DNA of 39,967 nt from the NCBI GenBank assembly GCA_937872615.1, contig CALMTT010000694.1, forward strand, positions 1 through 39,967, in the 5' to 3' direction. The notes beneath the pieces are model-generated. The model saw only the letters and a list, made by a program, of their open reading frames with translations. It was not told the DNA's origin and did not search any database. Of the stretch, positions 3,875 through 39,967 are shown piece after piece. The stretch's first letter is position 1, and each line of letters begins with the position of its first letter. The translations under genes and the position numbers were made by a program. The stretch comes from an uncultured Verrucomicrobiaceae bacterium. GTDB taxonomy: Bacteria; Verrucomicrobiota; Verrucomicrobiia; Verrucomicrobiales; Verrucomicrobiaceae.

Positions 3875-6445
3875 TCAGTGGCTCGTCGCGGGTTGGTTCA
3901 TCGCCTGGCTAAAGGACTCCCACGCACGGCGGAAGTCTTCTTTGGCCATGTAGATGGCGGCCATTTCCTGATGGAGGTAGGCGGGCGGATTGGGCGTGTT
4001 GCGCACCTTTTCGAGCGTGCGGATGGCCTGATCGAGCTCGTTGCGGTTTTTGTAGGCCTGGAAGAGGTCGATGCCGAGACGTGCATCGAGCGGATTGAAG
4101 AGAAAGGCCCTCTCAAGTGCCTGCACATCCGTGCTGGTGCCGGGCACCGTGCGGAGCAGGGAGGGCAGGTAGATGGAGGCGAGCTCGCAGGCACGCTTGA
4201 AGTCCGATTTCTTCGCGTAGTGCGCTGCGAGAAGCTTCCAGCCGCCGTCACGCTCCCACACCTTGTTGGACTCGATGGCGGCCATGAGGGCGTCCTGGTC
4301 GCCAAGACGGCCCCACATGTCGAAAAGGATGATGCGCTGGGAGGTTTCGAGCGTGCCGAGGTCCGGAGTGCGGGCGAGGATCTCGCGCAGGCAGCGATCG
4401 AAGTCCTCGCGGGTGTTCACGCTGGCGAGGTAGTCGAGCTGGAGGTCGAGCTTCCCGCTGGCGAGCCTCCACACCTGCTCGCGCAACTCGGGGACGTTGA
4501 CGGCGTGGTTGATCATCTGCCGGTAGTAGCCGTGCTGGCCGGGCCCGGCAGCCGGGAAGCGGCGCAAAAACTCACGCCAGCCGAGGATGGCATTCTCAGG
4601 CTTCGGCGATGCCAGCCAGCGCAGGCCCTCGGTGTAGCACATGTAGGCGTAGAAGGGCTCGAGGGCGCGTGCGCGGGTGAAATCGAGCAGCGCATCTTCA
4701 TAGTCTTGGCGCAGCACCAGGCGGATCTCCGCACGCTCAAAGTAGAGCGTGAAATCGAGCGGGCGCATGGCGATGGCGCGGTCGATGAGCGGCAAGGCAT
4801 CCACAGCGGCGCCGGAATTGGCCAGCTCACGAGCCTGCATCCGCAGCATGCGGGCGGAGCTGCTGCCGGGTAGCACGGGATTGCCAAAAGCCACCAGCAT
4901 CCAAGCGCCACCAAGTGTGATGACGGCCAGGCCAGCGGCTCCCATGAGCGATTTGTCCACGAGGGACGATGCGGTGGGCAGTCGGCGCGGTCGGATGGCA
5001 GTGGCGGCGAGCAGTGAGACGACCGCAAAGAAGGCCATGTTGCTCATCGGCACGTCGAAGGTGCCATGTAGAAGGCCCAGCAGCACGCCGATGGCGGCGC
5101 TGTTGCGGATGCGTCGATCATTGCGGCGGGAGCGGTCCTTGGACTTTTTCCCGAACCATGGCCCGCTGGAACGCAGCAGCCAGGCGATCAGCAGCAAACA
5201 CGGCACGAAGGTGGAGAGGCCGCCCTCGGCGAGGATGGTCAGGACGCTGCTCTCGGGGTGCAGTGCCCTCATCCGCGGGTCGTGGGGCAGCACGGGATCA
5301 TGCGTGCCGGTGGCGATGGCAAAGATGGTGTCGAAGTTCCCAAAGCCCATGCCCAGCCAAGGTGCCGCACTGGTGATCTGCAGCGTGTGACGGTAGAGCG
5401 TGGAGCGTGTGTCCATCTGCACGAGCGAGGTGCTGCCCTCCTTGAGACGGGTGGAGACACCGCCGCTGGACACATACAGCGTCGTGACGATCATGAGCAC
5501 GACGGACGCAGTGACCGCCATCTTCCGGAAGAAGCCGCGGCGCATGGCCGAGAAGCCCAGCCACAGCGTCATGCCCAGAAACAGCAGGATGAGCCCCGCA
5601 CGGGAGGTGTTCATGAAAATGGCCGTGGCGGGCATGAAGAAGCCGATGACGTAAAATAACCATGAACGCTGCTTGCGGCGGTTCGCATCGTAGGCAGACG
5701 CCGCGCACAGCACACTGGTGATGGCGGCGAGGCCGCTGATGTGATTGCGGTTGGGGAAGGGGCCGAAGCCCTCACCCCAGTCCTGATGCCGTGGCCACCA
5801 GGTGATTGGCACGAGCTTGAGGTGCTCCATGATCGTCAGCCAGCAGATGAAGACGCCACCCGCCGCCAGCGCCCTCACCATGGTGCTGCGTTGGGCCTGC
5901 GAGAAGCCGCGGCCGATGCACCAAGCCAGCCAGAGCATGCCCGTGGCAAAGTAGGCCCATGACTCAAAGGTCACCCAAGGCTGCGGCGTGGCCATTTTGC
6001 CGAGTTGAAGGCCCCAGTCGTTGACCAGTGTGTCACGCCAGGGCATCGCTCCGTGAAAGGACTGTGGCAAAAAGGCCAGCAGCGGGGCCAGCACGGCACC
6101 GGCGAGGGCGATGAGGGCCACTTTTGGCAGCCGCCTGCGCACCGGAAAGGCCAGCATCACCCCACCGAGCAGCAGGGCGGCCATGCCGCGTGCCCAGGGG
6201 GCATACGCACCACCCAGCACCACCGCCAGCAGCGGCGCGAGGGCAAAGATCCAGCCATGCCAGCCCGGCCCGTCGAGCTCGTGGCTGCTGCCTGCGGCAC
6301 TTGATGATGCTGCCTCATCTTCGTCCTCGTCCATGTCCGCTGGGGGCGCCACAGCCTCCTCGGCGATGCTGCCATCCTCCGCGGCCAGACGTGGCAGCGA
6401 GCGGTGCTTGGGTTCGGAGTCTTCGAAGGCAGGTTTGAATTCCAT
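3875..6445 (-). CDS. O-antigen ligase/polymerase family (Wzy_C) membrane protein with C-terminal TPR region
   Basis: 856 aa. An acidic Asp/Glu/Ser-rich cytoplasmic N-terminus (residues 1-60) is followed by about ten hydrophobic segments up to roughly residue 535. FPNRNHISG and ALHPESSVLTILAEGG fit the Wzy_C/O-antigen ligase core, including a conserved His in the large periplasmic loop. The remaining ~320 residues are helical TPR-like repeats (for example RALEPFYAYMCYTEGL and IRTLEKVRNTPNPPAYLHQE). Such proteins polymerise or ligate lipid-linked glycan repeats in the periplasm; a TPR tail is common in exopolysaccharide versions. The gene begins 15 nt after the glycosyltransferase at 6461-7957 on the same strand, so the two are probably co-transcribed. 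Polymerase versus ligase cannot be told from sequence alone. Confidence 0.85.
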   Translation of the reverse strand: MEFKPAFEDSEPKHRSLPRLAAEDGSIAEEAVAPPADMDEDEDEAASSSAAGSSHELDGPGWHGWIFALAPLLAVVLGGAYAPWARGMAALLLGGVMLAFPVRRRLPKVALIALAGAVLAPLLAFLPQSFHGAMPWRDTLVNDWGLQLGKMATPQPWVTFESWAYFATGMLWLAWCIGRGFSQAQRSTMVRALAAGGVFICWLTIMEHLKLVPITWWPRHQDWGEGFGPFPNRNHISGLAAITSVLCAASAYDANRRKQRSWLFYVIGFFMPATAIFMNTSRAGLILLFLGMTLWLGFSAMRRGFFRKMAVTASVVLMIVTTLYVSSGGVSTRLKEGSTSLVQMDTRSTLYRHTLQITSAAPWLGMGFGNFDTIFAIATGTHDPVLPHDPRMRALHPESSVLTILAEGGLSTFVPCLLLIAWLLRSSGPWFGKKSKDRSRRNDRRIRNSAAIGVLLGLLHGTFDVPMSNMAFFAVVSLLAATAIRPRRLPTASSLVDKSLMGAAGLAVITLGGAWMLVAFGNPVLPGSSSARMLRMQARELANSGAAVDALPLIDRAIAMRPLDFTLYFERAEIRLVLRQDYEDALLDFTRARALEPFYAYMCYTEGLRWLASPKPENAILGWREFLRRFPAAGPGQHGYYRQMINHAVNVPELREQVWRLASGKLDLQLDYLASVNTREDFDRCLREILARTPDLGTLETSQRIILFDMWGRLGDQDALMAAIESNKVWERDGGWKLLAAHYAKKSDFKRACELASIYLPSLLRTVPGTSTDVQALERAFLFNPLDARLGIDLFQAYKNRNELDQAIRTLEKVRNTPNPPAYLHQEMAAIYMAKEDFRRAWESFSQAMNQPATSH

Positions 6446-23404: not shown

Positions 23405-26400
23405 TCAGAGCGGCATCCGTGGCGGAGCAGTGGCCCACATCAGTTTCACTTCCTCCGGCGTGAGGTCGTAGGCTTGATTGATGAGGTCGCTGAGGGTGCG
23501 TTCGAGGTGGAGGGCTTCGGTGGCTTGCTGGCGGGCGGGGGCGATGCTGCGGGTGTGCTCGTCACGCAGGGCAGCGAGGGTGGCGGCGGTGAGGGGCTGC
23601 TTTTTGCCGCGCAGCTTCTTCACCTCGGCCACGAAGGCGTCGGAATCGAGGTCGGTCAGCGCGGCGAGCTTCTGGCTGGGCTTTTCGATGGCGTATTCCA
23701 CCCGCAACCAGTCGAGCACCGTGCGCTGCGTCTGCTGCTGGGCGGCCGTGATCTCGATGAGGCGGCGCACGGCGGTTTCGGCGGCCTCGCGGACCGCGGC
23801 GGTGGGTTCGGCGATGGGAAGCTCGGCCATTTTGAACGCCACCGGGCTGAGCGCCTCGTCCTTCATGTGCGGTAGCTCGCGCCAGTTGAACCACCATATC
23901 AAAGGTGAGTTCAAAACGGCGAGCAGATACAAATCATCGGTCGGGAGAATGAACGTCTTGTTGTTCGAGAAGACTCCGTTCGCTTCCAGAGCGTATGAGG
24001 GATGAAACTGAATCTCCTGATAAACGAGCTTCGGCCTTTTGAAGATGTCCCACGATTTGAAAGGCGACAGTTCCCACCAATATCGAACGGTGTTCTTCCG
24101 TCCTTTGAGAGCTTCGCGGTGGCTGTCCATGTGCGCGAATACTGATGGGTATGATTTGGCGAAAATGGCTTCTGCGTCCTGCTGGTCGCTCCAAGGCCAT
24201 TTGTGTTCGTTGCTCGAACGAAACGCGACCAACCACTCATCATTCCATTCGGAGGACCAGCGCTTCACATCCTGGCCGCGATAGTAACGAATGAAGATTT
24301 CCTCACAGCCGGGGTCACTTTTCACCATGAGGCGCTTCTGCTCATCGCTGACGAAGAATGCATCATTGCAGCCCGTCTTGAGCCCATAGATTGGATCGCA
24401 GCCGACAAACTTTTGGAGTGTTACTCCTGTGGCGCGAATTCGGGCCATCAAGGTCATCACTTCGCTTCGCTCAAGCTGCCACCCTTCCGATGTGAGCTGA
24501 TCCAAATCAAGTTCAGCACCTTCTTTGTCGATCTGAACGCTCAAGTCGTCGATGCGGAGCTGCTCACGCGGAATGGTGCAGAGGCGGGCGGTGGTCGGCT
24601 TGGCTTCGGTGGTCGGTTTTTCGGCGACGATGATGCAGGGGAAGACATCGGCCTCCTCGAAGATTTGCTTCGCGTGGCCGAAATCGACGACGCTGCGCAC
24701 CCAGGCCTGATCGCGGAAGAAGCGGCGCAGGGGCTCGCCGTAGCCGGCTTTCATCCATTTGTTCGTGACGATGTAGGACATGAGTCCACCGGGGCGGAGG
24801 AGCTTCATCCCCAGCTCGTAGAAATAGACGTAGAGGTCCGCCATGCCATGGTAGCTGGCGTAGCGTTGCTCCAGCCACGCTTTGAATGGCGTGAGCAGTT
24901 CCTGCCGCACATAGGGCGGATTTCCCACGACGACATCGAAGCCGCCTGTGGCAAAAACCTCCGGGAAGGCGGCCTGCCAGTCGAAGGCCTTCGCGTGCAC
25001 CGTGGTGTCGCTGATGATGCTGTTCCCCTCGCGGATGCTGTGGTCGAGGCTGGTGAGCTGTTTGCCGTGCGCGGCGGTTTTGATCCAAAGGCTGAGCTGG
25101 CAGATCTGAATGGCCTCGGCATTCAAATCGACGCCGTAGAGGTTGTGCTGGAGGATCTGGCGGTCGAGATCGAAGAGGGTGCGGTGGCCGCGCAGCTCCT
25201 CCAGGCGTGCATTGGACACCTCGTAATGGGCGTGGAGCTGGTCAAAGGCCTCGATGAGGAAAGCACCGCTGCCGCAGGCGGGATCGACAATGCGCAGGGC
25301 CTTCAACTGCTCCTGCCACTGCTCCCAGAAGCGGATGAGCGCTTTTCGTTGCGGCTCATTGAGCGCGGCGAGGTCGTAGGCGCTGGGATCGGCGAGGGCT
25401 TTCCTGGCCGTGCCGGTGGCGGCGGTCTCCTCGGTGCGGCGCAGGGCCTCAAAGCGGGCGAGGATGACGCTGCCGAGCGTCTGCTCGACGATGTAGCGGG
25501 TGATGAAGGCGGGGGTGTAGAAGGCACCTTCCTTTTTGCGGCGTGTCTTTGCCTCCGCCTCATCGGGCGCGGCCTCGCCGCTGGCGAGATCGAGCCGCAG
25601 GCGCTCCAGGTCGGTGATGGATTGCTCAAAGATGTGGCCGAGGATGTCCACATCAATGACGGGGCGGATTTCCACGCTGTCATCGGCCGCGTCGGACTCG
25701 CGGGCGGGACGGTAGTCGTATTCGGCGAGGTCGCGGAAGAGGGCGCAGACGCCATCCGGCACGGTGAGGGTATCGAGGCCGGGATCGTGAGCGAAGAGGC
25801 CGCCGTTGTAAGCAGGGATCTTCAGTGTGGCATTGCCGACATCGACGCTGCGAAAGAGGCCGCGGAAGTTTTCCCAGATGGGCCGCGGGTTGTAGGGATC
25901 GCTGTGCTCGAAGGCTCCGCGCACGGTGTTCGGCGGCAGCAGGCCGCGATCCTCGCAGAAGGAGCAGAAGAGCACGCGGTCGAGCAGCTTCTGGGTGCAG
26001 CGGAGGATTTCATTGGGATCCGCGGCGCTGTTCGCGTGGCGGAGCTGGGTGAAGACCTGCTGCCGGATGCCGGCGTAGAGGCCGTAGAACTGGTTCGTCA
26101 GCTCGCGGCCCGCGCTTTCGGAGGAGCGCAGCAGGGTGTCGAGATGGCTGGGGCCGCTCTCCGGCACCACGCGCTCCGCGCCGAGGAGGAAGACGAAGCG
26201 GCGCAGCAACGCCTCATCGCTGGCGAGGCGCACGGTGTCAAAGCGCTCGTAGGTCTGCTGGTTCGAGCCTTTGTGATGCAGCCGCGTCTCCCGCATGGAG
26301 GTGACGATGATCCAATCACACGGCAGATTGATGGCGTAGCGGTAGGCCTGATCGACGGCGGACATGCGGCGTCCGGCAAAGGGCCGCTCCAGCGGATCAC

Positions 26401-26752
26401 GCGTGCCCTTTCCCTCGACGGCGACGACGAAACGCTGCGTGGAGGCGGTGAAGCGCCCCAACGCGGCATCCGCGAACTGGCCGTCCACCTCGACATGCGT
26501 CTCCCGCAGCATGGTGAAGCTATCGCCGGCGGCAGCAGGGCCGGTGTAGCCGAGTAGCTGACCGAAAATGTCGGTGAGGAACTCCGGCAGCAGCGCGGTT
26601 TCCTTGAACGTGTCCGCCTTGCCGGAGCTGATGAGGTCCGCCCAATGCTGGAGGCGCGGACGGGCGGCCTCGACGGTAGCGGGCAGGTTAAAAGCATGCG
26701 CGGCCTTGCGCAGGAGTTCGGGGGAGAAGAGGGGCTTGGTTTCGACGGCCAT
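23405..26752 (-). CDS. Type IIG (Eco57I-like) restriction-modification enzyme
   Basis: 1,115 aa from the ATG at 26752; a GTG at 26845 would add 31 residues. A single chain should both cut and adenine-methylate DNA. Residues ~15-130 hold a probable PD-(D/E)xK nuclease, with VVAVEGKGTRD near 108-118. A helical linker follows, with the Eco57I-type signature KKEGAFYTPAFITRYIVEQ. The N6-adenine methyltransferase then shows motif I DPACGSGAF (about 487-495) and motif IV NPPY (about 610-613). The C-terminal third is a TaqI-like target-recognition domain (YGLKTGCNDAFFV, RYYRGQDVKRW). Recognition site is not predictable. The gene is divergent from mpl and lies at the edge of the accessory block, consistent with phage defence. 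Confidence 0.9.
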   Translation of the reverse strand: MAVETKPLFSPELLRKAAHAFNLPATVEAARPRLQHWADLISSGKADTFKETALLPEFLTDIFGQLLGYTGPAAAGDSFTMLRETHVEVDGQFADAALGRFTASTQRFVVAVEGKGTRDPLERPFAGRRMSAVDQAYRYAINLPCDWIIVTSMRETRLHHKGSNQQTYERFDTVRLASDEALLRRFVFLLGAERVVPESGPSHLDTLLRSSESAGRELTNQFYGLYAGIRQQVFTQLRHANSAADPNEILRCTQKLLDRVLFCSFCEDRGLLPPNTVRGAFEHSDPYNPRPIWENFRGLFRSVDVGNATLKIPAYNGGLFAHDPGLDTLTVPDGVCALFRDLAEYDYRPARESDAADDSVEIRPVIDVDILGHIFEQSITDLERLRLDLASGEAAPDEAEAKTRRKKEGAFYTPAFITRYIVEQTLGSVILARFEALRRTEETAATGTARKALADPSAYDLAALNEPQRKALIRFWEQWQEQLKALRIVDPACGSGAFLIEAFDQLHAHYEVSNARLEELRGHRTLFDLDRQILQHNLYGVDLNAEAIQICQLSLWIKTAAHGKQLTSLDHSIREGNSIISDTTVHAKAFDWQAAFPEVFATGGFDVVVGNPPYVRQELLTPFKAWLEQRYASYHGMADLYVYFYELGMKLLRPGGLMSYIVTNKWMKAGYGEPLRRFFRDQAWVRSVVDFGHAKQIFEEADVFPCIIVAEKPTTEAKPTTARLCTIPREQLRIDDLSVQIDKEGAELDLDQLTSEGWQLERSEVMTLMARIRATGVTLQKFVGCDPIYGLKTGCNDAFFVSDEQKRLMVKSDPGCEEIFIRYYRGQDVKRWSSEWNDEWLVAFRSSNEHKWPWSDQQDAEAIFAKSYPSVFAHMDSHREALKGRKNTVRYWWELSPFKSWDIFKRPKLVYQEIQFHPSYALEANGVFSNNKTFILPTDDLYLLAVLNSPLIWWFNWRELPHMKDEALSPVAFKMAELPIAEPTAAVREAAETAVRRLIEITAAQQQTQRTVLDWLRVEYAIEKPSQKLAALTDLDSDAFVAEVKKLRGKKQPLTAATLAALRDEHTRSIAPARQQATEALHLERTLSDLINQAYDLTPEEVKLMWATAPPRMPL

Positions 26753-26885
26753 GCGGGCTGCATGGAAGCGGGCACAGCGCGAAATGGCAAGCGATGTGGC
26801 GTCCGGCGTGAATCTTCCTGCCTCCGCACTTTTTTGGAGCGACACGGCTAAATCCGGCTTCTATCGCTGCCCTCCTACCTGATTC

Positions 26886-29106: not shown

Positions 29107-31485
29107 TTACCTCCGCACCGTCGCCGGAAGCGCCTTCTCTAGTGCGGCGAGGATACGCTGGTGGGCGGCATCGACTTCGGCGGTTTCGAGGGTCTTTTCG
29201 GGGCTGCGGTAGGTGAGGGTCCAGGCGATGGATTTGCGGTCGCTGGGGATCTTTTGGCCGGTGGGGTCGGTGAAGACGTCGAAGACCTCGCTGGCGATGA
29301 AGAGGGGCTCTTTTTGCGTGGCGAAGAAGGCGGCGACTTTGGCGTGCGGGAGATCGGCGGGGACTTCCATGGCGACATCGCGGGTCATGCCGGGGAAGCG
29401 TGGGAGTTCTTCAAACTTCGCGGGGCCGGTGCTGCCTTGGCGCAGGGCGCTGAGGAGCAACTCGGCGACATAGACGGGATGACGGGCGCTGATGTCGCGG
29501 GCGCGGGAGGGATGCAGTTGGGCGATCCAGCCGAGGTTGCGATTGCCGGCGCGGAGTTCGCTGGTGAGCAGGAAGTTCGCGGGGGATTCTTTGACGGCCT
29601 TTGGCTCGATGCTGACGCGACTGAGGCCGGGCAGGTTTTGAATGATGCCCATGAGCTCATGGATGTCGGCAGGCTGCGGCGTGCGGGCGTGCCAGCTCGA
29701 TGGGCTGACGGGGCCGCTGATGAGGATGGCGAGGCGTTCTTCTTCGCGGCTGCCACCATTCGGGAGCTTCAGGAAGACGCGGCCGAGCTCGAAGAAGCGC
29801 AGGCGGTCGGCGCCTTGGCGGATGTTCAGTGCGGCGGTGGCGATGAGGCCTGAGATGATGCTGGGGCGCAACGTGGTGTGGTCTTCGCTTAGCGGATTCT
29901 TCACGGCGACACCGGTGCCGCCGCCGAGGGTATCGGCGAGTTGGGATTCGGCGACGAGGCGCAGGGTTTGCGCTTCAAAGCAGCCGCGATTGACCAAAGC
30001 CTGACGGATGGTCATGGCGAAGTCGTAGGCGCGATCCGTGGCATCGCTGGGGACGGCGACGGCGGTCATTTTCGATGGGACGCGGTCGAGACCGATGACG
30101 CGGGCGATTTCCTCGATGAGATCGACGGGGCGCTGGAGGTCGGCTCGGTAGCTGGGGATGCTCCAAGTGCCGTTTTCGTGCTTGAGGCCGAGTTTGGTCA
30201 AAATGGAGCGGATTTCGTCGCTTGAGAGATCGGGGGTGCCGAGAAGTTTTCGGGCGCGATCATCATCGAGGGCGATTTGACCAGTCAAAACGGGTGTTTC
30301 ACCTGCGACGAGCAAAACATCGTCGGCGGAGCCTCCGGCGATTTCGAGGATGAGCTTCGTGGCGAGTTCGGAGCCGCCAGCGACTTGCTGCGGGTCGATG
30401 CCGCGCTCGAAGCGGTAGCTGCTGTCGCTGCTGAGGCCGAGTCGGCGGGAAGTGCGGCGGATGTTGGACGGCGTGAACCACGCGGCTTCCAGCAGCACGT
30501 TCGTGGTGGCTTCGGTGACGCCGGTTTCTTCACCGCCCATGACTCCGGCGATGGCGACGGCACGCTTTTGATCGGCGATGACGAGGTCGTCGGTTTGCAG
30601 CGTGTAGGTCTGCGCATCGAGGGCGAGGAATTTTTCGCCGTCGGTGGCTTGGCGCACGACGATGGAGCCGCTGAGCTTGTCGAGGTCGAAGCAATGCAGC
30701 GACTGGCCCATTTCCATCATGACGTAGTTCGTGATGTCCACGATGCTGTTGATGGGACGCAGGCCGATGCTTTCGAGGCGACGACGCAGCCATTCCGGGC
30801 TGGGGCCGACTTTGACGCCTTTGATGAGGCGTGCGGTGTACAGTGGGCAGACTTCTTTGGCTTCGAGTTTGATGTCGGAGGCGGCTGCTTTCGTTTTTGT
30901 CGCGGTGTAACCGCGCTGGCCTTTGAGCGGGATGCCGGTGAGGGCGCTGAGCTCGCGGGCGAGGCCGAGGTGGCTGAGGAGGTCGGGGCGATTCGGCGTG
31001 ATCTCGAGGTCAAAGACGACATCGGAAGGCACGAGCTGATTGAAGGGCGTGCCGATGGGCGAATCGGGCGACAGGATGAGCAGACCGCTGTGGTCATCGC
31101 CGAGGCCGAGTTCTTTGCCGCTGCACATCATGCCCAGGCTGGCCACATCGCGCAGTTTGCCTTCTTTGATGGTGAATCCGCCGGGCAAAACGGCTCCGGG
31201 GAGTGCGAGGGGCACTTTGTCGCCTGCTTTGAAGTTCTTCGCGCCGCAGACGATCTGTCGCGGGGTGCCGCTGCCGTCATTGACCTGGCAGACGCTGAGT
31301 TTGTCGGCATTCGGGTGCTGCACGAAGGAGTCGATCTGAGCCACGACGACCTTGTCAGTGGTCACGCCGCGTTCTTCGATGCCTTCGACCTCGACACCGG
31401 CGAAGGTGAGCAGGTCAGAGAGCTGCGGGACGGTGTAGCTGCTGAGATCGAGATGAGTGCTGAGCCAGGAGAGGGAGACTTGCAT
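29107..31485 (-). CDS. pheT: Phenylalanine--tRNA ligase beta subunit
   Basis: 792 aa, full length. With PheS it forms the cytosolic (alpha-beta)2 enzyme that charges tRNA-Phe. Order of domains: N-terminal tRNA-binding (EMAP-like) fold at about 40-155 (HPNADKLSVCQVNDG), the B3/B4 editing domain (IVDITNYVMMEMGQSLHCFD), the B5 domain (about 400-475), a catalytic-like core (RYRP-type segment replaced here by YRFERGIDPQQVAG in the B-domain), and the FDX-ACB anticodon-binding end (ELPRFPGMTRDVAMEVPADL). It follows pheS but is separated by a 122-nt spacer filled with an inverted repeat, unusual for the normally tight pheST operon. No Shine-Dalgarno site. Confidence 0.96.
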   Translation of the reverse strand: MQVSLSWLSTHLDLSSYTVPQLSDLLTFAGVEVEGIEERGVTTDKVVVAQIDSFVQHPNADKLSVCQVNDGSGTPRQIVCGAKNFKAGDKVPLALPGAVLPGGFTIKEGKLRDVASLGMMCSGKELGLGDDHSGLLILSPDSPIGTPFNQLVPSDVVFDLEITPNRPDLLSHLGLARELSALTGIPLKGQRGYTATKTKAAASDIKLEAKEVCPLYTARLIKGVKVGPSPEWLRRRLESIGLRPINSIVDITNYVMMEMGQSLHCFDLDKLSGSIVVRQATDGEKFLALDAQTYTLQTDDLVIADQKRAVAIAGVMGGEETGVTEATTNVLLEAAWFTPSNIRRTSRRLGLSSDSSYRFERGIDPQQVAGGSELATKLILEIAGGSADDVLLVAGETPVLTGQIALDDDRARKLLGTPDLSSDEIRSILTKLGLKHENGTWSIPSYRADLQRPVDLIEEIARVIGLDRVPSKMTAVAVPSDATDRAYDFAMTIRQALVNRGCFEAQTLRLVAESQLADTLGGGTGVAVKNPLSEDHTTLRPSIISGLIATAALNIRQGADRLRFFELGRVFLKLPNGGSREEERLAILISGPVSPSSWHARTPQPADIHELMGIIQNLPGLSRVSIEPKAVKESPANFLLTSELRAGNRNLGWIAQLHPSRARDISARHPVYVAELLLSALRQGSTGPAKFEELPRFPGMTRDVAMEVPADLPHAKVAAFFATQKEPLFIASEVFDVFTDPTGQKIPSDRKSIAWTLTYRSPEKTLETAEVDAAHQRILAALEKALPATVRR

Positions 31486-31607: not shown

Positions 31608-32633
31608 TCAGGCGGCGAACTGTTGGAGGAAGCGGACGTCGTTTTCGATGAGGTGACGGATGTCGGTGATGCTGTGCAGGATCATCGCGAGGCGGTCGAG
31701 GCCGAGACCGAAGGCGAAGCCGGTGGTGGTCTCGGGATCGAAGAGATTGTCGCCGCGGCTCTTGTTCACGGCGGTGAAGACCGCGGGATCGACCATGCCG
31801 CAGCCGGCGATTTCGATCCAGCGGGCGTCTTTGCCCTTCGCTTCGAGTTTCACATCGATCTCGAAGCTCGGCTCTGTGAACGGGAAGAAGTGCGGGCGGA
31901 AGCGCACGGCGGTGTTGGGGCCGAAGATCTCGCGGAAGAAGGCTTCGAGCGTGCCTTTGAGATCGGCGAGGCTGACGTCGTTGGAGACGTAGAGACCTTC
32001 GAGTTGGTTGAAGACGCTGAGGTGCGTGGCGTCGATCTCATCGCGGCGATACGCGGCTCCGGGCGCGATGATGCGGATGGGCAGCGACTTCGCGGCTTCC
32101 ATGGTGCGGATCTGCACGCTGGAGGTGTGCGTGCGCAGCAGGCGACCATCGGGGAGGTAGAAAGTGTCTTTTTCATTCCGCGCCGGATGATCGGCAGGCG
32201 TGTTGAGAGCGTCGAAGCAGTGGAATTCGGTCTCGATCTCCGGTCCTTCGGCCAAAATGAAGCCGAGGCGACGCAGCGTGCGGATGGCGAGATCGCGAAT
32301 CTGTGTGAGCGGATGCAAAGCGCCGTTTCCAGTGCCCGGACGGCCCGGAAGCGTGATGTCGATGCCTTCGACGGCCTTCGCGTCCAGCGCAGCCTGGAGA
32401 GCGAGCTTCTTCGACTCGATGCCATCCGTGATGGCGGTGCGCACGTCGTTGAGTTTGGCACCGACTTCCTTCTTCTGATCGACGGGCACGTCCCGCATGT
32501 TTTGGCTCAGCGCGGTGACGCTGCCTTTTTTGCCAAGGAAGTTCACGCGCACGGCTTCGAGCGCGGTTTCATCCTGAGCGGCGGCGAGAGCAGCGAGAGC
32601 TTCGGTTTTGAGGGAATCGAGTTGGGAGAGCAT
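31608..32633 (-). CDS. pheS: Phenylalanine--tRNA ligase alpha subunit
   Basis: 341 aa, normal. It is the catalytic subunit with PheT. The N-terminal coiled coil (residues 1-90, including NFLGKKGSVTALSQNM) contacts tRNA. The class II core shows motif 2 (LLRTHTSSVQIRTM), the acceptor region EFHCFDALNTPADHPAR, RRDEIDATHLSVFNQLEG, and motif 3 (GFAFGLGLDRLAM), with SITDIRHL close behind. It starts 49 nt after the giant repeat-protein gene ends on the same strand, with no clear terminator between, so read-through is possible. The gap to pheT holds the inverted repeat. No good Shine-Dalgarno; GGAAG lies 12 nt upstream. Confidence 0.97.
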   Translation of the reverse strand: MLSQLDSLKTEALAALAAAQDETALEAVRVNFLGKKGSVTALSQNMRDVPVDQKKEVGAKLNDVRTAITDGIESKKLALQAALDAKAVEGIDITLPGRPGTGNGALHPLTQIRDLAIRTLRRLGFILAEGPEIETEFHCFDALNTPADHPARNEKDTFYLPDGRLLRTHTSSVQIRTMEAAKSLPIRIIAPGAAYRRDEIDATHLSVFNQLEGLYVSNDVSLADLKGTLEAFFREIFGPNTAVRFRPHFFPFTEPSFEIDVKLEAKGKDARWIEIAGCGMVDPAVFTAVNKSRGDNLFDPETTTGFAFGLGLDRLAMILHSITDIRHLIENDVRFLQQFAA

Positions 32634-32682: not shown

Positions 32683-35600
32683 TTATGGCTGCGTCACGCG
32701 GACGCGGCTGAAGATCTTGTCCACGGTGGCGGGATCGGCGGGTTCTTCGATGATGACGCGTTCCCAGCCGGGGGCGATGGGCGTGACGGTGGGCGTGGTG
32801 GTGATGGGCGCCCAGGAACTCAGTGTGGTGGATTTTTCCGGCAGGTAGGTGATGCCGCCGGTGGTGCGGCGGATGAATTCGATGCGGAAAACGCTGCCGG
32901 GGCCGCTGCCGGTGCGCTGCACGGTGGGAAGGCCGGAGGTGCCAGTGCCGGGAAGAAGCGTATGAAGGTCCACAACGGCGGGATTGAGATTGAAGGCGTA
33001 TTTGAGGAGGTTTGACAGACCATCGCTGGCCGGGTTGGAGTCGAGGCCGCCTGTGCTGGCACCCAGGCCTGCGGAGGAGGCCCAAGTTTGATAGGCTGAG
33101 TCTGGGACGACGAGTCCGATGAGCGGGAAGTTGAAGGTGCTTTCATCGACATCGTTGCTGTTGAGATTCAAACTGCCGCTGAAGGTGCCTGCGCTGGTGG
33201 CATCGAGACGTGTTTGGAAGGTGTATGTCGCGCTCGGAGCGAGACTGGAGCCCGGCAGCGCGGTTTGCAGCGTGTATCCGGCGGGCGGCGTGATGCTGCT
33301 GAGCTGCAAATCGGCCGTGCCAGTGTTTTGCACGGTGAAGCTGCGCGTCACAGCCATGCTTTGGGTGGTGATGCCGAAGTCGATGGCGGTGCTTTGTCCG
33401 TCAGCGAGCTGCGGCGCGGCGTTGGTGGTGCCGTCATGCACGACGATCTCGGGTGCGAGCGCATCCGGCGTGTAGCGGAGGAGGATCACCTGGCCGTCAT
33501 TGCCGAGATAGCCCCAGCCACCGACGATGATGCTGCCATCGCTCTGGGTGGCGATGCCCCAGGCGTACTGATCGCGGCCAGGGGAGGGATTGACGATGGA
33601 GACTCCGCTGGTGCCAAAGGAGGTGTCGAGCAGGCCATTGGCGAGCAGGCGGATGGCCACGATGTCGTTGTCGGTGCCGTTGTAGCGATAGCCGGCGGCG
33701 AGGATGCGGCCGTCGGGTTGCAAGGCGAGGTCGTAGATGCTTTCGGAGTTTCCAGGAGAGGTTTGGACGCTCGTTTTGCCGCTAATGCCAAAGGTGGTGT
33801 CGAGCGTGCCGTTGGTGAGGTAGCGGGCGATGGTGAGCTCGCCATCGGAGCCGTTGGAGGCGAGGCCGCCGAGGAGGATTTTGCCATCTGGGAGGAGCTG
33901 GATGGCGTAGGCGATGTCATCGAGGCTGCTGAGGGAGCTGACGACCTTGCCGCCAGTGCCGAAGGTGGTGTCGAGCGTGCCATTGCTGTTGAAGCGAGCG
34001 AGGGCAAAGTCATCGAGAACGCCGGTGGCGGTCTGGCAGCCGAGGAGGATTTTGCCGTCTGGCTGGAGTGTCATGGACCAGCAGCGGTCGAGATCATTGC
34101 CAAAGGCCATCGTGACGATGCCGAAGGTGGCGTCGAGCGTGCCGTTTGAGTTCAATCGCACGAGGGCGACATCGTCATTGCTGCCGTTGTTGGAGTAACC
34201 ACCGACGAGGATTTTGCCGTCCGGCTGGAGGGCGACGGCACGTGCGATGTCGAGGCCGGTGCCGATGGGCAGGATCACTTTGCCGGCGGTGCCAAAAGTG
34301 GTGTCGAGAGCGCCGTCGGCATTCAGGCGAATGAGGCTGAAGTCCTCGTTCGTGGCGAGCGAGTAGCCTGCGAGAATGGTTTTACCATCTGGCTGCACAG
34401 TGATGGCATACGGGAAGTCCGAGTTGGCTCCGACGGGCACGCGGGTGATGCCATCTGGCGGCACGCTGGTGTCTGGCGTGCCATCCGGGAGGAAGCGGGT
34501 AAGCTGGAAGTCGCTGCTGGCACCGGAGTTACCGTTTCCAGTGATGAAAACGCGGTCGTCAGGCAGCATCGCCATCGCATAGCCAGCATCGAAGCTCACG
34601 GCGAAGTCATTGCTGAGAATTCCAGAGCCGCCGACGGTGGTGTCGAGGGCACCAGCGGCAGTGGTGACGAGCAAAACGGCCTCGTCATCCCGTGCGGCGG
34701 CGGCATAGCCGACGATGGCGATGCGGCCATCGGCGAGGGATTTAACGCCCCGGCCTTGCTCTGTGCCAGCACCGATGGGGAAGATGGCTTTGCCATCCGT
34801 GTCGAAAGTGGTGTCGAGTGAACCTGCCGTGTTGTGGCGTGCGAGGGCGATGTCGTAGTTCGTGCCGTTCCAAGTGATGCCGGTGGTGAGGATTTTGCCA
34901 TCGGCCTGGAGGTCCATGCTGTAAGCCCAGTCGGTGGAGGTGCCAAAGGTGGTGGTGACTTTGCCATCGGTGTCGAAGGTCGTGTCGAGGCTGCCGTTGC
35001 TGTTGTAGCGGGCGAGGGCGAATTCGTCTCCCACACTAGGCATATTGGCATAGCCTGCAGCGACGATTTTTCCGTCGCCTTGGAGTTGTATTTGTCGGAT
35101 TGTGTCGGCGCTTGTGCCTATGGTTGTCGTGACCTTCCCGTCAGTGTCAAATGTGGCGTCCAGTGAGCCATTGACGTTGAGACGAACAAGAGAGAAGTCA
35201 TCATTACTGCCGTTGCTGGACAGTCCGGCCAGAATGATTTTCCCGTCTGTTTGAACGGTTGAGGAGTAACAAAAGTCCGTTGTTGAACTGATGGAGACGT
35301 TCAAGATGCCGTCAGAGTCAAAGGTCGTGTCGAGTTCTCCGGAAGACGTGAACCGCACGGCGACCATGTCGTAATTGAACAGGGACCCCGACTGGAACAA
35401 GCCGTGTCCAGCAATAATGATCTTTCCATCTGCCTGGATAGAAGCTGTGTTGCAGGAGTCGAAGCTGTCGGTTGGGGCAACGATAACCTTGCCGTCACCA
35501 CTGAAACTGTTGTCCAACGCCCCGTTGGTCTGCAAGCGGACTGCAAACATGTCATCGTTCGTGCCATTGCTGGCAGTCCCTGCCAAAATGATCTTGCCAT

Positions 35601-38600
35601 CCGGCTGCACGAGCACGCTGTTGGCGGTGTCGCTATTGCCATTCAAATCATAGATCACGGCTCCACCGCTGCCAAAGGTGATGTCCGGTGTTCCATCGGT
35701 GTTCCAGCGGGTGACGAGCACATCGTAAGTTACTCGTCCGCCGGTGTAGGTGCGGCCTGCGGCGATGATTTTGCCATCTGCCTGCTGGGCGACGCTGTAG
35801 TAGTGATCTTGGCCGGTGGTGATGCCTTGAGTCACCTGGCCTCCAGAGCCGAATCCGGCATCAAGCTGGCCCGGGGGCGGCAAAACAGCCATCACATTGC
35901 CGACGACGGGAATTTCAAAATTGGCCTCATCGCTGTCATTGCTGGTGATGACGAGGTTTCCGCTGAAAAGGCCCGCAGAGGCCGCGTCGAGCCGAAGTTG
36001 GAAAACGGCGCTGGAACTGCTGGCGATGCTGGAGGGCGCATTTTGCACGGTAAAGCCCGCCGGGGCCGTGATGGAACTGATGGTGAGGCTGGAGAAGCCC
36101 TGATTGGCGACGGTGAAGCTGCGGATGACCTGGCTGCCCATGAGCGTGGAGCGGTAGTTCACGGTGGAAGCCTGTGCATCGCTCAAAGCGGTGCCGTCGA
36201 GGCTTACCGCGATCTCCGGCGCATCCACGCTGCCGCGAACGGGGAAGTCAAAGGAGGCCTCGTCCGCGTCATTGCTGGCGATGACGATGCTGCCGCTGAA
36301 AAAGCCCGCGCTGGTGGCATCCAGGCGGATTTGGAAGGTGGCGATGCCTCCCACCGTCACGACGGAGGGCGCTCCGAGCACGCTGAAACCAGTCGGTGCG
36401 GTGATGGAGCTGATGGTGAGGTCTGCGCTGCCCGGATTGGTGATCTGAAAGCTGCGTGTCACAGCAGAACCGGAGGGCACCGCTCCGTAGTCGAGCACGG
36501 TGGTCTGGCCATCGGTCAGGGCGGTGGCAGGCAGCGTGTTGGCATCCGCGAGAGTGATCTCCGGCACGAGGGCATCCGGCAGCAGGCGCAGCACGAGCAT
36601 CTGGGTGTCGCTGCCCGGATTCACTGTGTAGCCGGTGATGACGATGGCACCGTCGTTTTGCACCGCGATGGCATACCCATAGTCAGTGCCCGTGCCGTAA
36701 GGGATGACGAGCTTGCCATCGCCATCGAAGCTGCTGTCGAGCAGACCGTTTTCGAGGAAGCGGAGCACGGCGATGTCGTAGCTGGTGCCGTTGTAGGTGC
36801 GGCCAGTGGCGAGGATCTTGCCGTCCGGCTGCAAAGCGATGCCATAGATCGTGTCCGTGCTGGCGAGGACGGGGACGATGGTCTTGCCACCGGAACCGAA
36901 TGCGGGGTCGTAGCTGCCATTGGCATTGAGGCGGACGATGGCGGCATCGCTGTTGGCCTCACCTGCGGCGAGGATTTTACCATCGGGGAGCACTTGGAGC
37001 GCATACACATACTCGGAGTTGCTCGCTGGAGTCAAGGTGACGAGCCCGCTGGTGCCAAAGCTCGTGTCGAGCGTGCCGTTGGCATTGTAGCGGGCGAGGC
37101 CGAAGTCGGTGCTGGTATTGCCAGCATTGCGCGTCTCGCCTGCGACGAGGATGCGCCCGCCTGAGTAGGCCGCGATGGCGTAGAGGCGATCTGTACCCAC
37201 CGTGGCGGTGGTGGTGACTTTTCCACCCGTGCCGAAGGTGCCATCGAGGCTGCCGTCTGCATTATACCGGGCGATGGCGTAGTCATCATTGCTGCCGTTG
37301 CTGGAATAGCCCGCCAGGACGATGCGTCCGTCGTTTTGCAGCAAAAGGGCGCGGCCAATATCAGTGCTGGCGCCGATGGTGGTGGTGGCGCTGCCATTGT
37401 TGCCAAAGCTGGTGTCCGGCGTGCCGTCTGCATTTTGGCGCATGACCATGAAGTCATCGTTGCTGATGAAGGAGTGGCCGCCGAAGACGATCTTGCCATC
37501 CGGCTGCACGGCCACGCCGTAAGCGCGATCCGTGCTGGTGCTTACACGGGTGATGGTCTTTCCGCCGGTACCATAGCTGTTGTCCAGCGTGCCGTCAGGC
37601 AGGAAACGGGCGGCGGTGACGTCGTCAGTGACACCCTGGTAGATGTAGCCAGCGGCGATGATTTTTTGATCCGGCTGAATGGTCATCGCCAGACCGTAGT
37701 CCGAGCCTTGACCAAAATTGAGAAGAGCGACTCCAGACGAGCCAAAGGTGCTCCGCGTGCTGCCGTCTGGCTCCAGGCGTGTCACGGCCACGTCGTTGTC
37801 GCTGCCATTGAAGGCATAGCCTGCCAGCACGATGCTGCCATCCGCGTGCAGGGCCACGGCACGGGCAAAGTCACTGTTGTTTCCCGGTGCGAGCGGCAGC
37901 ACTCGCTTTCCATCCGTGTCAAAGGTGGTGTCCAGTGCCCCGGCGGAGGTATAGCGGGCAATGGCGAAGTCATCCGCCGTGCCCGTGGTGATGGAGTAGC
38001 CAGCGGCGATGACCTTGCCATCACTCTGCAAGGCGACGCCGTAGATGCGGTCGGTGCCGGTGCCGATAGGCGTGGTCACCTTCCCGTCTGTGTCGAAGCT
38101 GGTGTCCAGCGAGCCGTTCGTGTTGTAGCGGGCGAGGGCGAAATCGGACCCCACCATGTAGCCGCCGACGAGGATTTTGCCGTCCGGCTGGAGGAGCATG
38201 TCATGGATACGGTCCGTGCCGGTTCCGATGGTGGTGGTCACTTTGCCATCCGTGTCAAAGGTGGTGTCCAGCGTGCCGTCCGTGTTGTAGCGCACGAGGG
38301 CGAAGTCCTCGTTCGTCATCGCGGCATAGCCTGCGAGGATGATCTTGCCGTCTCCCTGCAAGGCGGCGGTGTAGGCGATCTCGGTGCCAGTGCCGATGGT
38401 GGTGACCACCTTTCCGCCTGTGCCGAAGGTGGAATCGAGCGCACCGGTGCTGGTGTAACGCACGGCGGCGAAATCGCTGTTTGTGCCGTTATTAGCTTCG
38501 CCGGCCAGCACGATTTTGCCATCTGGCTGCACGAGCACCTTCCAGCCGTAGTCACTCGCGCTGCCGATGCCGGTGGTGACGATGCCATCGGTATCAAACG

Positions 38601-39967
38601 AGGAGTCGAGGCTGCCGTCCGCGAGATAGCGCACGAGGGCGAAATCGTAGTTGCTGCCGTTATAGGTGTAGCCCCCGGCGAGGATCTTGCCGTCTGGCTG
38701 GAGAGCGAGGCTGTAGATGCGGTCACTGCTCGTGCCCACGCGGGTGATGACGATGCCCGCATTGCCGAAAGTGCTGTCCAACGTGCCATCTACGTTCAGG
38801 CGGGCGAGGAAGAACTCGTAGTCCCCGCCCATGTAGGCATTGCCGCCGACGAGAGTTTTCCCATCGTTGAGGGCGAGAGTGGCATAGGCTTCATCATTGG
38901 CACCACCAAAGCCCGTGGGAGCGAAGCCATCCCCGCTGAAGGACGGGTCCGGCTGGCCTGCGGCGAGAGCTATGGCTGTCACCACGCCCGCCACCGGCGC
39001 CTCGAAGCTGGCCTCGTCCGCGTCGTTGTTGGCGATGACCACGTTTCCGGCAAAACTGCCAGCTGTTGCTGCGGTGAGGGTGACCTGGAAAACGGCGCTG
39101 GAGCTGGCGGGGATGCTGGTGGGAGCATTTTGGACGGTGAAACCAGCGGGCGGAGTGATGGAGGTGATGCTCAGGGCTGCCAAACCCGTGTTTTCGATGA
39201 CAAAACTCTGTGTGACCGCGATGCCCTGCGGCGTGGAGCGGAAGGAAACCGGTAATGACTGCCCATCGGCCACATTTTGCCCATCGGCATTCAGAGCGAT
39301 CTCCGGCGCATCCACGCCGCCACGCACCGGGAACTCGAAACTGGCTTCATCCGCGTCGTTGCTGCTCAAGACGATGTTTCCGTTGAAAAAGCCCGCGGAG
39401 GCCGCGGTGAGCTGAATTTGGAAAGTGGCCTCGCCACCGGCGGAAACGAGCGAGGGCGGATTTTGCACGCTAAAACCCGCCGGAGCCGTGATGGAGGCCA
39501 AAACGAGGTCCGAGGTGCCGGGGTTCGAAATCGTGAAATCACGCGTGATGGCCGATCCGGTGCCGGTGGAGCCGAAATCGACCGCGGTGGGCTGCCCGTC
39601 GGTCAAAACAGGTGCCAGCGAGGTATCTCCATCGAACACGGTGATCTCCGGCTGGAGCGAGTCGCCTACCAGACGCATGACGAGGAACTCAGGATTCGCG
39701 CCCTGGTAGGTGTAGCCGCCCACGACGATGCTGCCGTCACTTTGCAGGGCCACCGCATTGGCATAATCATCACCCGTGCCCGGCGCGGCGATGAGGTCGT
39801 TGGTGGAAATGATCTGCGCGGCTTGCTGGAGCGTGATGGTGTCGCTGGTGAGCGCATCGCTGGTTTCATCGCCGGGCAAACCGGACGTGTGACTGAACAT
39901 CTGGCGGATGGTGATCGTGCCCTTTTGCCCGGTGTAATACTGCGGAAAGAACTTGGACGCCGGATCA
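32683..39967 (-). CDS. Giant delta-60-repeat/choice-of-anchor-D surface protein, joined in frame to a partial serine hydrolase; 5' end outside window
   Basis: The frame is open from the right edge to a TAA at 32683, about 2,427 codons; a Met at 39900 is internal, not a convincing start. Order: partial class C beta-lactamase-like segment (IRQMFSHTSGLPGDE, up to about residue 42 after that Met); half a delta-60 repeat; two choice-of-anchor-D (ASH-like) domains (about 85-305); 14 delta-60 repeats (about 315-1110); two more anchor-D domains (1110-1335); 14 more repeats (1343-2148); one anchor-D domain; and a C-terminal domain (2262-2405) with YQTWASSAGL and DGLSNLLKYAFNLNP, common on exported Verrucomicrobia proteins. 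Delta-60 units carry DGKIlvaG and lDttF and are predicted beta-propeller blades. It is probably secreted and cell-surface attached; the ligand is unknown. pheS follows after 49 nt. Confidence 0.85.
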   Translation of the reverse strand, partial: DPASKFFPQYYTGQKGTITIRQMFSHTSGLPGDETSDALTSDTITLQQAAQIISTNDLIAAPGTGDDYANAVALQSDGSIVVGGYTYQGANPEFLVMRLVGDSLQPEITVFDGDTSLAPVLTDGQPTAVDFGSTGTGSAITRDFTISNPGTSDLVLASITAPAGFSVQNPPSLVSAGGEATFQIQLTAASAGFFNGNIVLSSNDADEASFEFPVRGGVDAPEIALNADGQNVADGQSLPVSFRSTPQGIAVTQSFVIENTGLAALSITSITPPAGFTVQNAPTSIPASSSAVFQVTLTAATAGSFAGNVVIANNDADEASFEAPVAGVVTAIALAAGQPDPSFSGDGFAPTGFGGANDEAYATLALNDGKTLVGGNAYMGGDYEFFLARLNVDGTLDSTFGNAGIVITRVGTSSDRIYSLALQPDGKILAGGYTYNGSNYDFALVRYLADGSLDSSFDTDGIVTTGIGSASDYGWKVLVQPDGKIVLAGEANNGTNSDFAAVRYTSTGALDSTFGTGGKVVTTIGTGTEIAYTAALQGDGKIILAGYAAMTNEDFALVRYNTDGTLDTTFDTDGKVTTTIGTGTDRIHDMLLQPDGKILVGGYMVGSDFALARYNTNGSLDTSFDTDGKVTTPIGTGTDRIYGVALQSDGKVIAAGYSITTGTADDFAIARYTSAGALDTTFDTDGKRVLPLAPGNNSDFARAVALHADGSIVLAGYAFNGSDNDVAVTRLEPDGSTRSTFGSSGVALLNFGQGSDYGLAMTIQPDQKIIAAGYIYQGVTDDVTAARFLPDGTLDNSYGTGGKTITRVSTSTDRAYGVAVQPDGKIVFGGHSFISNDDFMVMRQNADGTPDTSFGNNGSATTTIGASTDIGRALLLQNDGRIVLAGYSSNGSNDDYAIARYNADGSLDGTFGTGGKVTTTATVGTDRLYAIAAYSGGRILVAGETRNAGNTSTDFGLARYNANGTLDTSFGTSGLVTLTPASNSEYVYALQVLPDGKILAAGEANSDAAIVRLNANGSYDPAFGSGGKTIVPVLASTDTIYGIALQPDGKILATGRTYNGTSYDIAVLRFLENGLLDSSFDGDGKLVIPYGTGTDYGYAIAVQNDGAIVITGYTVNPGSDTQMLVLRLLPDALVPEITLADANTLPATALTDGQTTVLDYGAVPSGSAVTRSFQITNPGSADLTISSITAPTGFSVLGAPSVVTVGGIATFQIRLDATSAGFFSGSIVIASNDADEASFDFPVRGSVDAPEIAVSLDGTALSDAQASTVNYRSTLMGSQVIRSFTVANQGFSSLTISSITAPAGFTVQNAPSSIASSSSAVFQLRLDAASAGLFSGNLVITSNDSDEANFEIPVVGNVMAVLPPPGQLDAGFGSGGQVTQGITTGQDHYYSVAQQADGKIIAAGRTYTGGRVTYDVLVTRWNTDGTPDITFGSGGAVIYDLNGNSDTANSVLVQPDGKIILAGTASNGTNDDMFAVRLQTNGALDNSFSGDGKVIVAPTDSFDSCNTASIQADGKIIIAGHGLFQSGSLFNYDMVAVRFTSSGELDTTFDSDGILNVSISSTTDFCYSSTVQTDGKIILAGLSSNGSNDDFSLVRLNVNGSLDATFDTDGKVTTTIGTSADTIRQIQLQGDGKIVAAGYANMPSVGDEFALARYNSNGSLDTTFDTDGKVTTTFGTSTDWAYSMDLQADGKILTTGITWNGTNYDIALARHNTAGSLDTTFDTDGKAIFPIGAGTEQGRGVKSLADGRIAIVGYAAAARDDEAVLLVTTAAGALDTTVGGSGILSNDFAVSFDAGYAMAMLPDDRVFITGNGNSGASSDFQLTRFLPDGTPDTSVPPDGITRVPVGANSDFPYAITVQPDGKTILAGYSLATNEDFSLIRLNADGALDTTFGTAGKVILPIGTGLDIARAVALQPDGKILVGGYSNNGSNDDVALVRLNSNGTLDATFGIVTMAFGNDLDRCWSMTLQPDGKILLGCQTATGVLDDFALARFNSNGTLDTTFGTGGKVVSSLSSLDDIAYAIQLLPDGKILLGGLASNGSDGELTIARYLTNGTLDTTFGISGKTSVQTSPGNSESIYDLALQPDGRILAAGYRYNGTDNDIVAIRLLANGLLDTSFGTSGVSIVNPSPGRDQYAWGIATQSDGSIIVGGWGYLGNDGQVILLRYTPDALAPEIVVHDGTTNAAPQLADGQSTAIDFGITTQSMAVTRSFTVQNTGTADLQLSSITPPAGYTLQTALPGSSLAPSATYTFQTRLDATSAGTFSGSLNLNSNDVDESTFNFPLIGLVVPDSAYQTWASSAGLGASTGGLDSNPASDGLSNLLKYAFNLNPAVVDLHTLLPGTGTSGLPTVQRTGSGPGSVFRIEFIRRTTGGITYLPEKSTTLSSWAPITTTPTVTPIAPGWERVIIEEPADPATVDKIFSRVRVTQP
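33456..35868 (-). repeat. Delta-60 repeat block 2 (14 units, ~172 bp each)
   Basis: Fourteen consecutive protein units of about 54-61 residues, each with an lDttFgtdGkv start, a central Q.DGKI..aG and an alarRynsdGs end. Unit 8 is the most divergent (LDTTVGGSGILSNDF; LPDDRV). Unit 14 ends in LLRYTPDALAPEI, running into the next anchor-D domain. Boundaries are approximate. Confidence 0.85.
36570..38955 (-). repeat. Delta-60 repeat block 1 (14 units, ~170 bp each)
   Basis: Fourteen consecutive units of the same type. Unit 8 again is atypical (TRSTFGSSGVALLNF; QPDQKI) and shares RFLPDGT with unit 8 of block 2; unit 9 shares ITRV. Unit 14 ends in LRLLPDALVPEI, as in block 2. The blocks are therefore aligned position by position, suggesting duplication of a whole block. 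Confidence 0.85.
39775..39966 (-). other. Serine hydrolase (beta-lactamase class C-like) fragment at the N-terminal end of the giant frame
   Basis: About 64 codons reading FFPQYYTGQKGTITIRQMFS, HTSGLPGDE and LIAAPGT. The ITIRQ(L/M)xxHTSGLP stretch is a landmark of class C beta-lactamase/D-alanyl-D-alanine-type serine hydrolases and lies between their SxxK nucleophile and YxN/YGG motifs. In normal members PGT is followed by Phe/Ser-Tyr-Gly and more of the fold. Here, right after PGT (39775-39783), the sequence becomes GDDYANAVALQSDGSI, a delta-60 unit. The SxxK part would lie beyond the window. Confidence 0.75.

Follow-up and report, generated by a model that had tools for sequence, protein, structure and literature searches.

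A serine hydrolase/delta-60 repeat junction at the end of a Verrucomicrobiaceae contig, very probably an assembly or library chimera

The junction between a serine hydrolase piece and a delta-60 repeat array at the end of contig C694 is very probably an assembly or library chimera. Both sides of the junction have a proper continuation elsewhere: the repeat gene in a head on contig C224, which is placed by synteny and with ~1.6 kb between the two contigs absent, and the hydrolase in an intact gene of another genome (L058), which runs through the break. The two sides also differ in lineage affinity, as identity within the genus rises to 99% for the neighbouring pheS but to at most ~39% for the hydrolase piece, which reaches 83% outside it. 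An assembly mis-join was among the three possibilities named in a preliminary description of the sequence, and it is favoured by the C224 head, the synteny and the foreign affinity of the hydrolase.

Reading frame and break point

The stretch of DNA analysed here (the window) covers contig C694 in full (39,967 bp); the contig comes from a draft genome of 744 contigs that is 91% complete with 7.4% contamination. Position 39967 is the physical end of the contig. No stop codon interrupts the minus-strand frame 39966-32683, which stays open as far as the window's right end. The break falls ~190 bp short of this end, so that the hydrolase side is supported by ~190 bp only. The features of the window are listed in Table 1.

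Table 1 Positions of the features in the window.
Feature	Position	Strand	Basis
64-aa PF00144 serine hydrolase piece, foreign to the locus	39775..39966	-	PF00144, E 8.7e-9
Junction with short possible homology	39771..39783	-	GGCACGG, ~6-9 nt
3' part of the giant delta-60 gene	32683..39774	-	DUF5122, TIGR02608 and choice-of-anchor D matches; unit positions
pheS	31608..32633	-	PF01409, 5.6e-87; neighbour used for synteny; 96-99% identical in the closest relatives
pheT	29107..31485	-	PF03483, PF17759 and others
Eco57I-type restriction-modification methylase	23405..26845		TaqI-like specificity domain

From 39774 downwards, the repeat part of the frame starts with the second half of block 1's unit 14 and a pair of Ig-like domains. 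Block 2 (14 units), a further Ig-like pair and block 3 (also 14 units) come next, and a single Ig-like domain and a C-terminal domain complete the protein. TIGR02608 matched 29 stretches in the frame with 1382.6 bits against a cut-off of 76.5. The gene thus carries tandem ~57-aa delta-60 units (TIGR02608/PF17164) above the cut-off, in two full 14-unit blocks and a half unit.

The direct passage from a hydrolase to delta-60 repeats within one frame and without a linker, as described previously, was borne out by PF00144 and delta-60 matches on the two sides, which are far beyond chance. The exact break is at 39774/39775 inside a GGCACGG(G) run, and the earlier start of 39755, correct to ~20 bp, lies that distance past it. 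The protein reads PGT at the break, followed by GDDYANAVALQSDGSI and then by the delta-60 repeats. The half unit after the junction, which had been likened to unit 14, is 49% and 50% identical to that unit in the two complete 14-unit blocks over ~60-65 aa.

At the corresponding place, the sequence is TAC GGC ACG GGC ACT GAC TAT in unit 14 of block 2 and CCC GGC ACC GCG TTC in the intact hydrolase gene of L058. The letters common to the repeat and hydrolase sides at the break are about GGCACG(GG), or 6-9 nt. As this homology is shorter than the usual assembly k-mer, it would fit a chimera among the library molecules or a contig end wrongly extended in the repeat array. Base composition was of no use for discriminating the two sides (GC of 0.606 in the hydrolase piece versus 0.616 in the repeat gene).

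A genuine recent fusion, in which a horizontally acquired hydrolase gene entered the repeat array through short-homology recombination, either in the sequenced strain or in a fraction of the population, is very unlikely. In its favour, the reading frame continues through the junction, and relatives secrete hydrolases of this family, so that a chimera at the surface is conceivable. However, a frame is retained across such a junction by chance in 1 of 3 cases, and the delta-60 ORFs examined in nine further genus members contained no hydrolase. The junction string occurs once in the genome of the window, with no second copy found. The junction was absent from 56 relatives and from genome_contigs and viral_contigs; the occurrence in relatives that had been named as the mark of a stable fusion was thus found in 0 of 56, and no independent genome was found to share the junction.

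The head of the repeat gene on a second contig

Contig C224 (5552 bp) was found by searching the genome of the window with the repeat part. It carries rpmI (TIGR00001) and rplT (TIGR01032), followed by a repeat-gene ORF that starts at 1350 and is still open, in frame, at the final base (5552). This ORF encodes an N-terminal hydrophobic stretch, a Peptidase_S8 domain (2.4e-32), a BACON domain, two choice-of-anchor D (Ig-like) domains and delta-60 units 1-4. Its Ig-like and repeat part shares 51% identity with the paralogous C694 stretch; the longest exact string common to C224 and the gene on C694 measures 22 nt and is located in a repeat. The repeat gene is therefore present as a head without a tail on C224 and as a tail without a head on C694.

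The order rpmI-rplT-pheS-pheT is well known to be conserved. The repeat gene on C694 is adjoined by pheS and then pheT, and the four genes lie together in relatives of the genus with PheS 96-99% identical. Because the cluster is contiguous in these relatives, C224 (rpmI-rplT-head) and C694 (tail-pheS-pheT) represent the two sides of one locus. The gap between rplT and pheS is 94 bp in L139, 89 bp in L142 and 105 bp in L143, and ~0.9-1.3 kb in others. No rplT was found within ~12 kb upstream of pheS in L141, or in the stretches read from the more distant genus members L147-L149.

The rplT-pheS gap appears as an insertion spot in the genus, closed (~90-105 bp) in some members and occupied by the giant repeat gene in the genome of the window. 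Among the gaps examined (L140, L145, L146, L150, L151 and L152), a metallophosphoesterase gene was seen in L145, a HepT/nucleotidyltransferase pair in L152, and a transposase-like ORF together with an acyltransferase gene in L151.

The search of the window's own genome recovered the beginning of the missing repeat block (units 1-4) next to rpmI-rplT on C224, but not the ~1.6 kb in between. If block 1 had 14 units, ~546 residues (~1.6 kb) would be missing between unit 4 on C224 and unit 14 on C694. Judging from synteny and domain order, the two contigs, which share no sequence overlap, would be joined by ~1.6 kb of unassembled repeats. The proposal that half a hydrolase had replaced an upstream repeat block does not agree with the beginning of this block lying with rpmI-rplT on C224 and the C694 part lying with pheS-pheT. 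The fusion reading would also require recombination to have deleted the subtilase head together with the greater part of block 1, a combination that is highly improbable since the normal head is present on C224 in the same assembly and the rplT-pheS synteny places it at this locus.

Affinity of the hydrolase piece

The 64 residues at the start of the frame match PF00144 (Beta-lactamase) at positions 77-140 of the 329-position profile. This part does not include the SxxK and Y-x-N-type motifs of a full serine hydrolase or class C beta-lactamase: comparison with L058 indicates that SxxK lies beyond the contig end and that the piece stops just before the Y motif. Lacking both, the piece could not be an enzyme.

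The nearest relative, L059, is 83% identical over 52 aa (86% in DNA), followed by L058 with ~70% over 64 aa (78% in DNA). The genomes of L058 and L059 group in one other family of Verrucomicrobia, and the family search lists no genome of the family of the window. The intact serine hydrolase that had been suggested as a search target was thus found, in a different family. The L058 enzyme has 443 aa and belongs to the same subfamily as the terminal 64 aa; unlike the window frame, it has SSTK (about residues 102-105), Y192, its own C-terminus and no delta-60 repeats, and its sequence PGT-AFCYGG runs through the break point. In L059, the contig ends inside the hydrolase gene at 4947-4949, ~35 bp before the position of the window break, which may be chance.

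In the 34 genomes of the genus that were searched, the best matches to the piece were ~39% or less, and the subfamily was not found. Among 388 sampled genomes of the phylum (E up to 1e-10), it was found in none except the genome of the window itself. The rest of the hydrolase was not found in that genome, which holds only ordinary paralogues of about 23-37%, and no relative was found among viral contigs.

These searches bear on a mis-join of two loci within one genome, by which the hydrolase would be a gene of the host itself with its remainder unbinned. Such a gene could be missing from a bin that is 91% complete, and the GC of the piece equals that of the repeat gene. This origin is nonetheless highly improbable, since the subfamily occurs in 0 of the 34 genus genomes and in 0 of the 388 phylum genomes besides the window's own, and its close relatives are found only in one other family. 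There is likewise very little probability that, in a minority strain, a hydrolase fragment acquired horizontally has become fused to a delta-60 tail as a headless surface chimera. Against a genuine fusion stand the length of the piece (~190 bp at a contig end), the lack of both catalytic motifs and the want of a genus homologue above ~39%. The surface-displayed chimera envisaged earlier is not supported, given the origin of the hydrolase piece in a lineage outside the genus and the normal head on C224.

Proposed origin of the junction and the predicted protein

Under the preferred reading, an assembly or library chimera, the true gene would encode one giant surface-type protein between rplT and pheS, with a membrane-anchored or secreted subtilase head, a BACON domain, paired Ig-like domains and three blocks of delta-60 beta-propeller repeats. 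The assembly would have broken inside the first repeat block, one end becoming C224 with units 1-4. The C694 end would have been extended from the middle of unit 14, through short homology, by ~190 bp from the genome of a co-occurring bacterium, taken from an unrelated gene for a serine hydrolase. The source of the mis-join was probably a chimeric read or a faulty contig-end extension. Short-read metagenome assemblies often contain chimeric contigs: one benchmark (PMC11261854) gives 22 per genome with MEGAHIT and 2.6 with SPAdes. C694 resembles such inter-genome chimeras in holding two lineages in one contig, with the break ~190 bp from the end and in a repeat-rich gene of the kind that fragments assemblies. 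It differs in that the foreign part is very short and by chance in frame, and hence resembles a protein fusion.

Related subtilase-headed proteins of 2857-2864 aa occur in the same genus, for example in G019 and G034. Their S8 heads are 57-58% identical over ~700 aa to that of the window's genome, whereas they bear RCC1-type propeller repeats in place of delta-60 repeats. In the stretches read from G019, G034 and G005, the subtilase-headed gene was not near pheS. Related heads were observed with differing tails, namely RCC1 (L116 6086-14677 and L117 6414-14984), delta-60 (L096 1350-5552) and MBG domains (L120 1641-5987). Modular tail exchange among related subtilase heads is possible.

The diagnosis of a chimera averts the report of a false new fusion protein, and the conserved neighbours rplT and pheS, split over two contigs, provide a cheap check by which the true gene comes to light. 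Its product, a three-block delta-60 protein with a subtilase head encoded within a conserved translation-gene cluster, is modestly new and of a kind already known. Because it combines a hydrophobic N-terminal segment, an S8 protease, Ig-like spacers and propeller repeats, the true protein is likely, as predicted from its parts, to be a protease that is secreted or exposed on the surface and has binding repeats.
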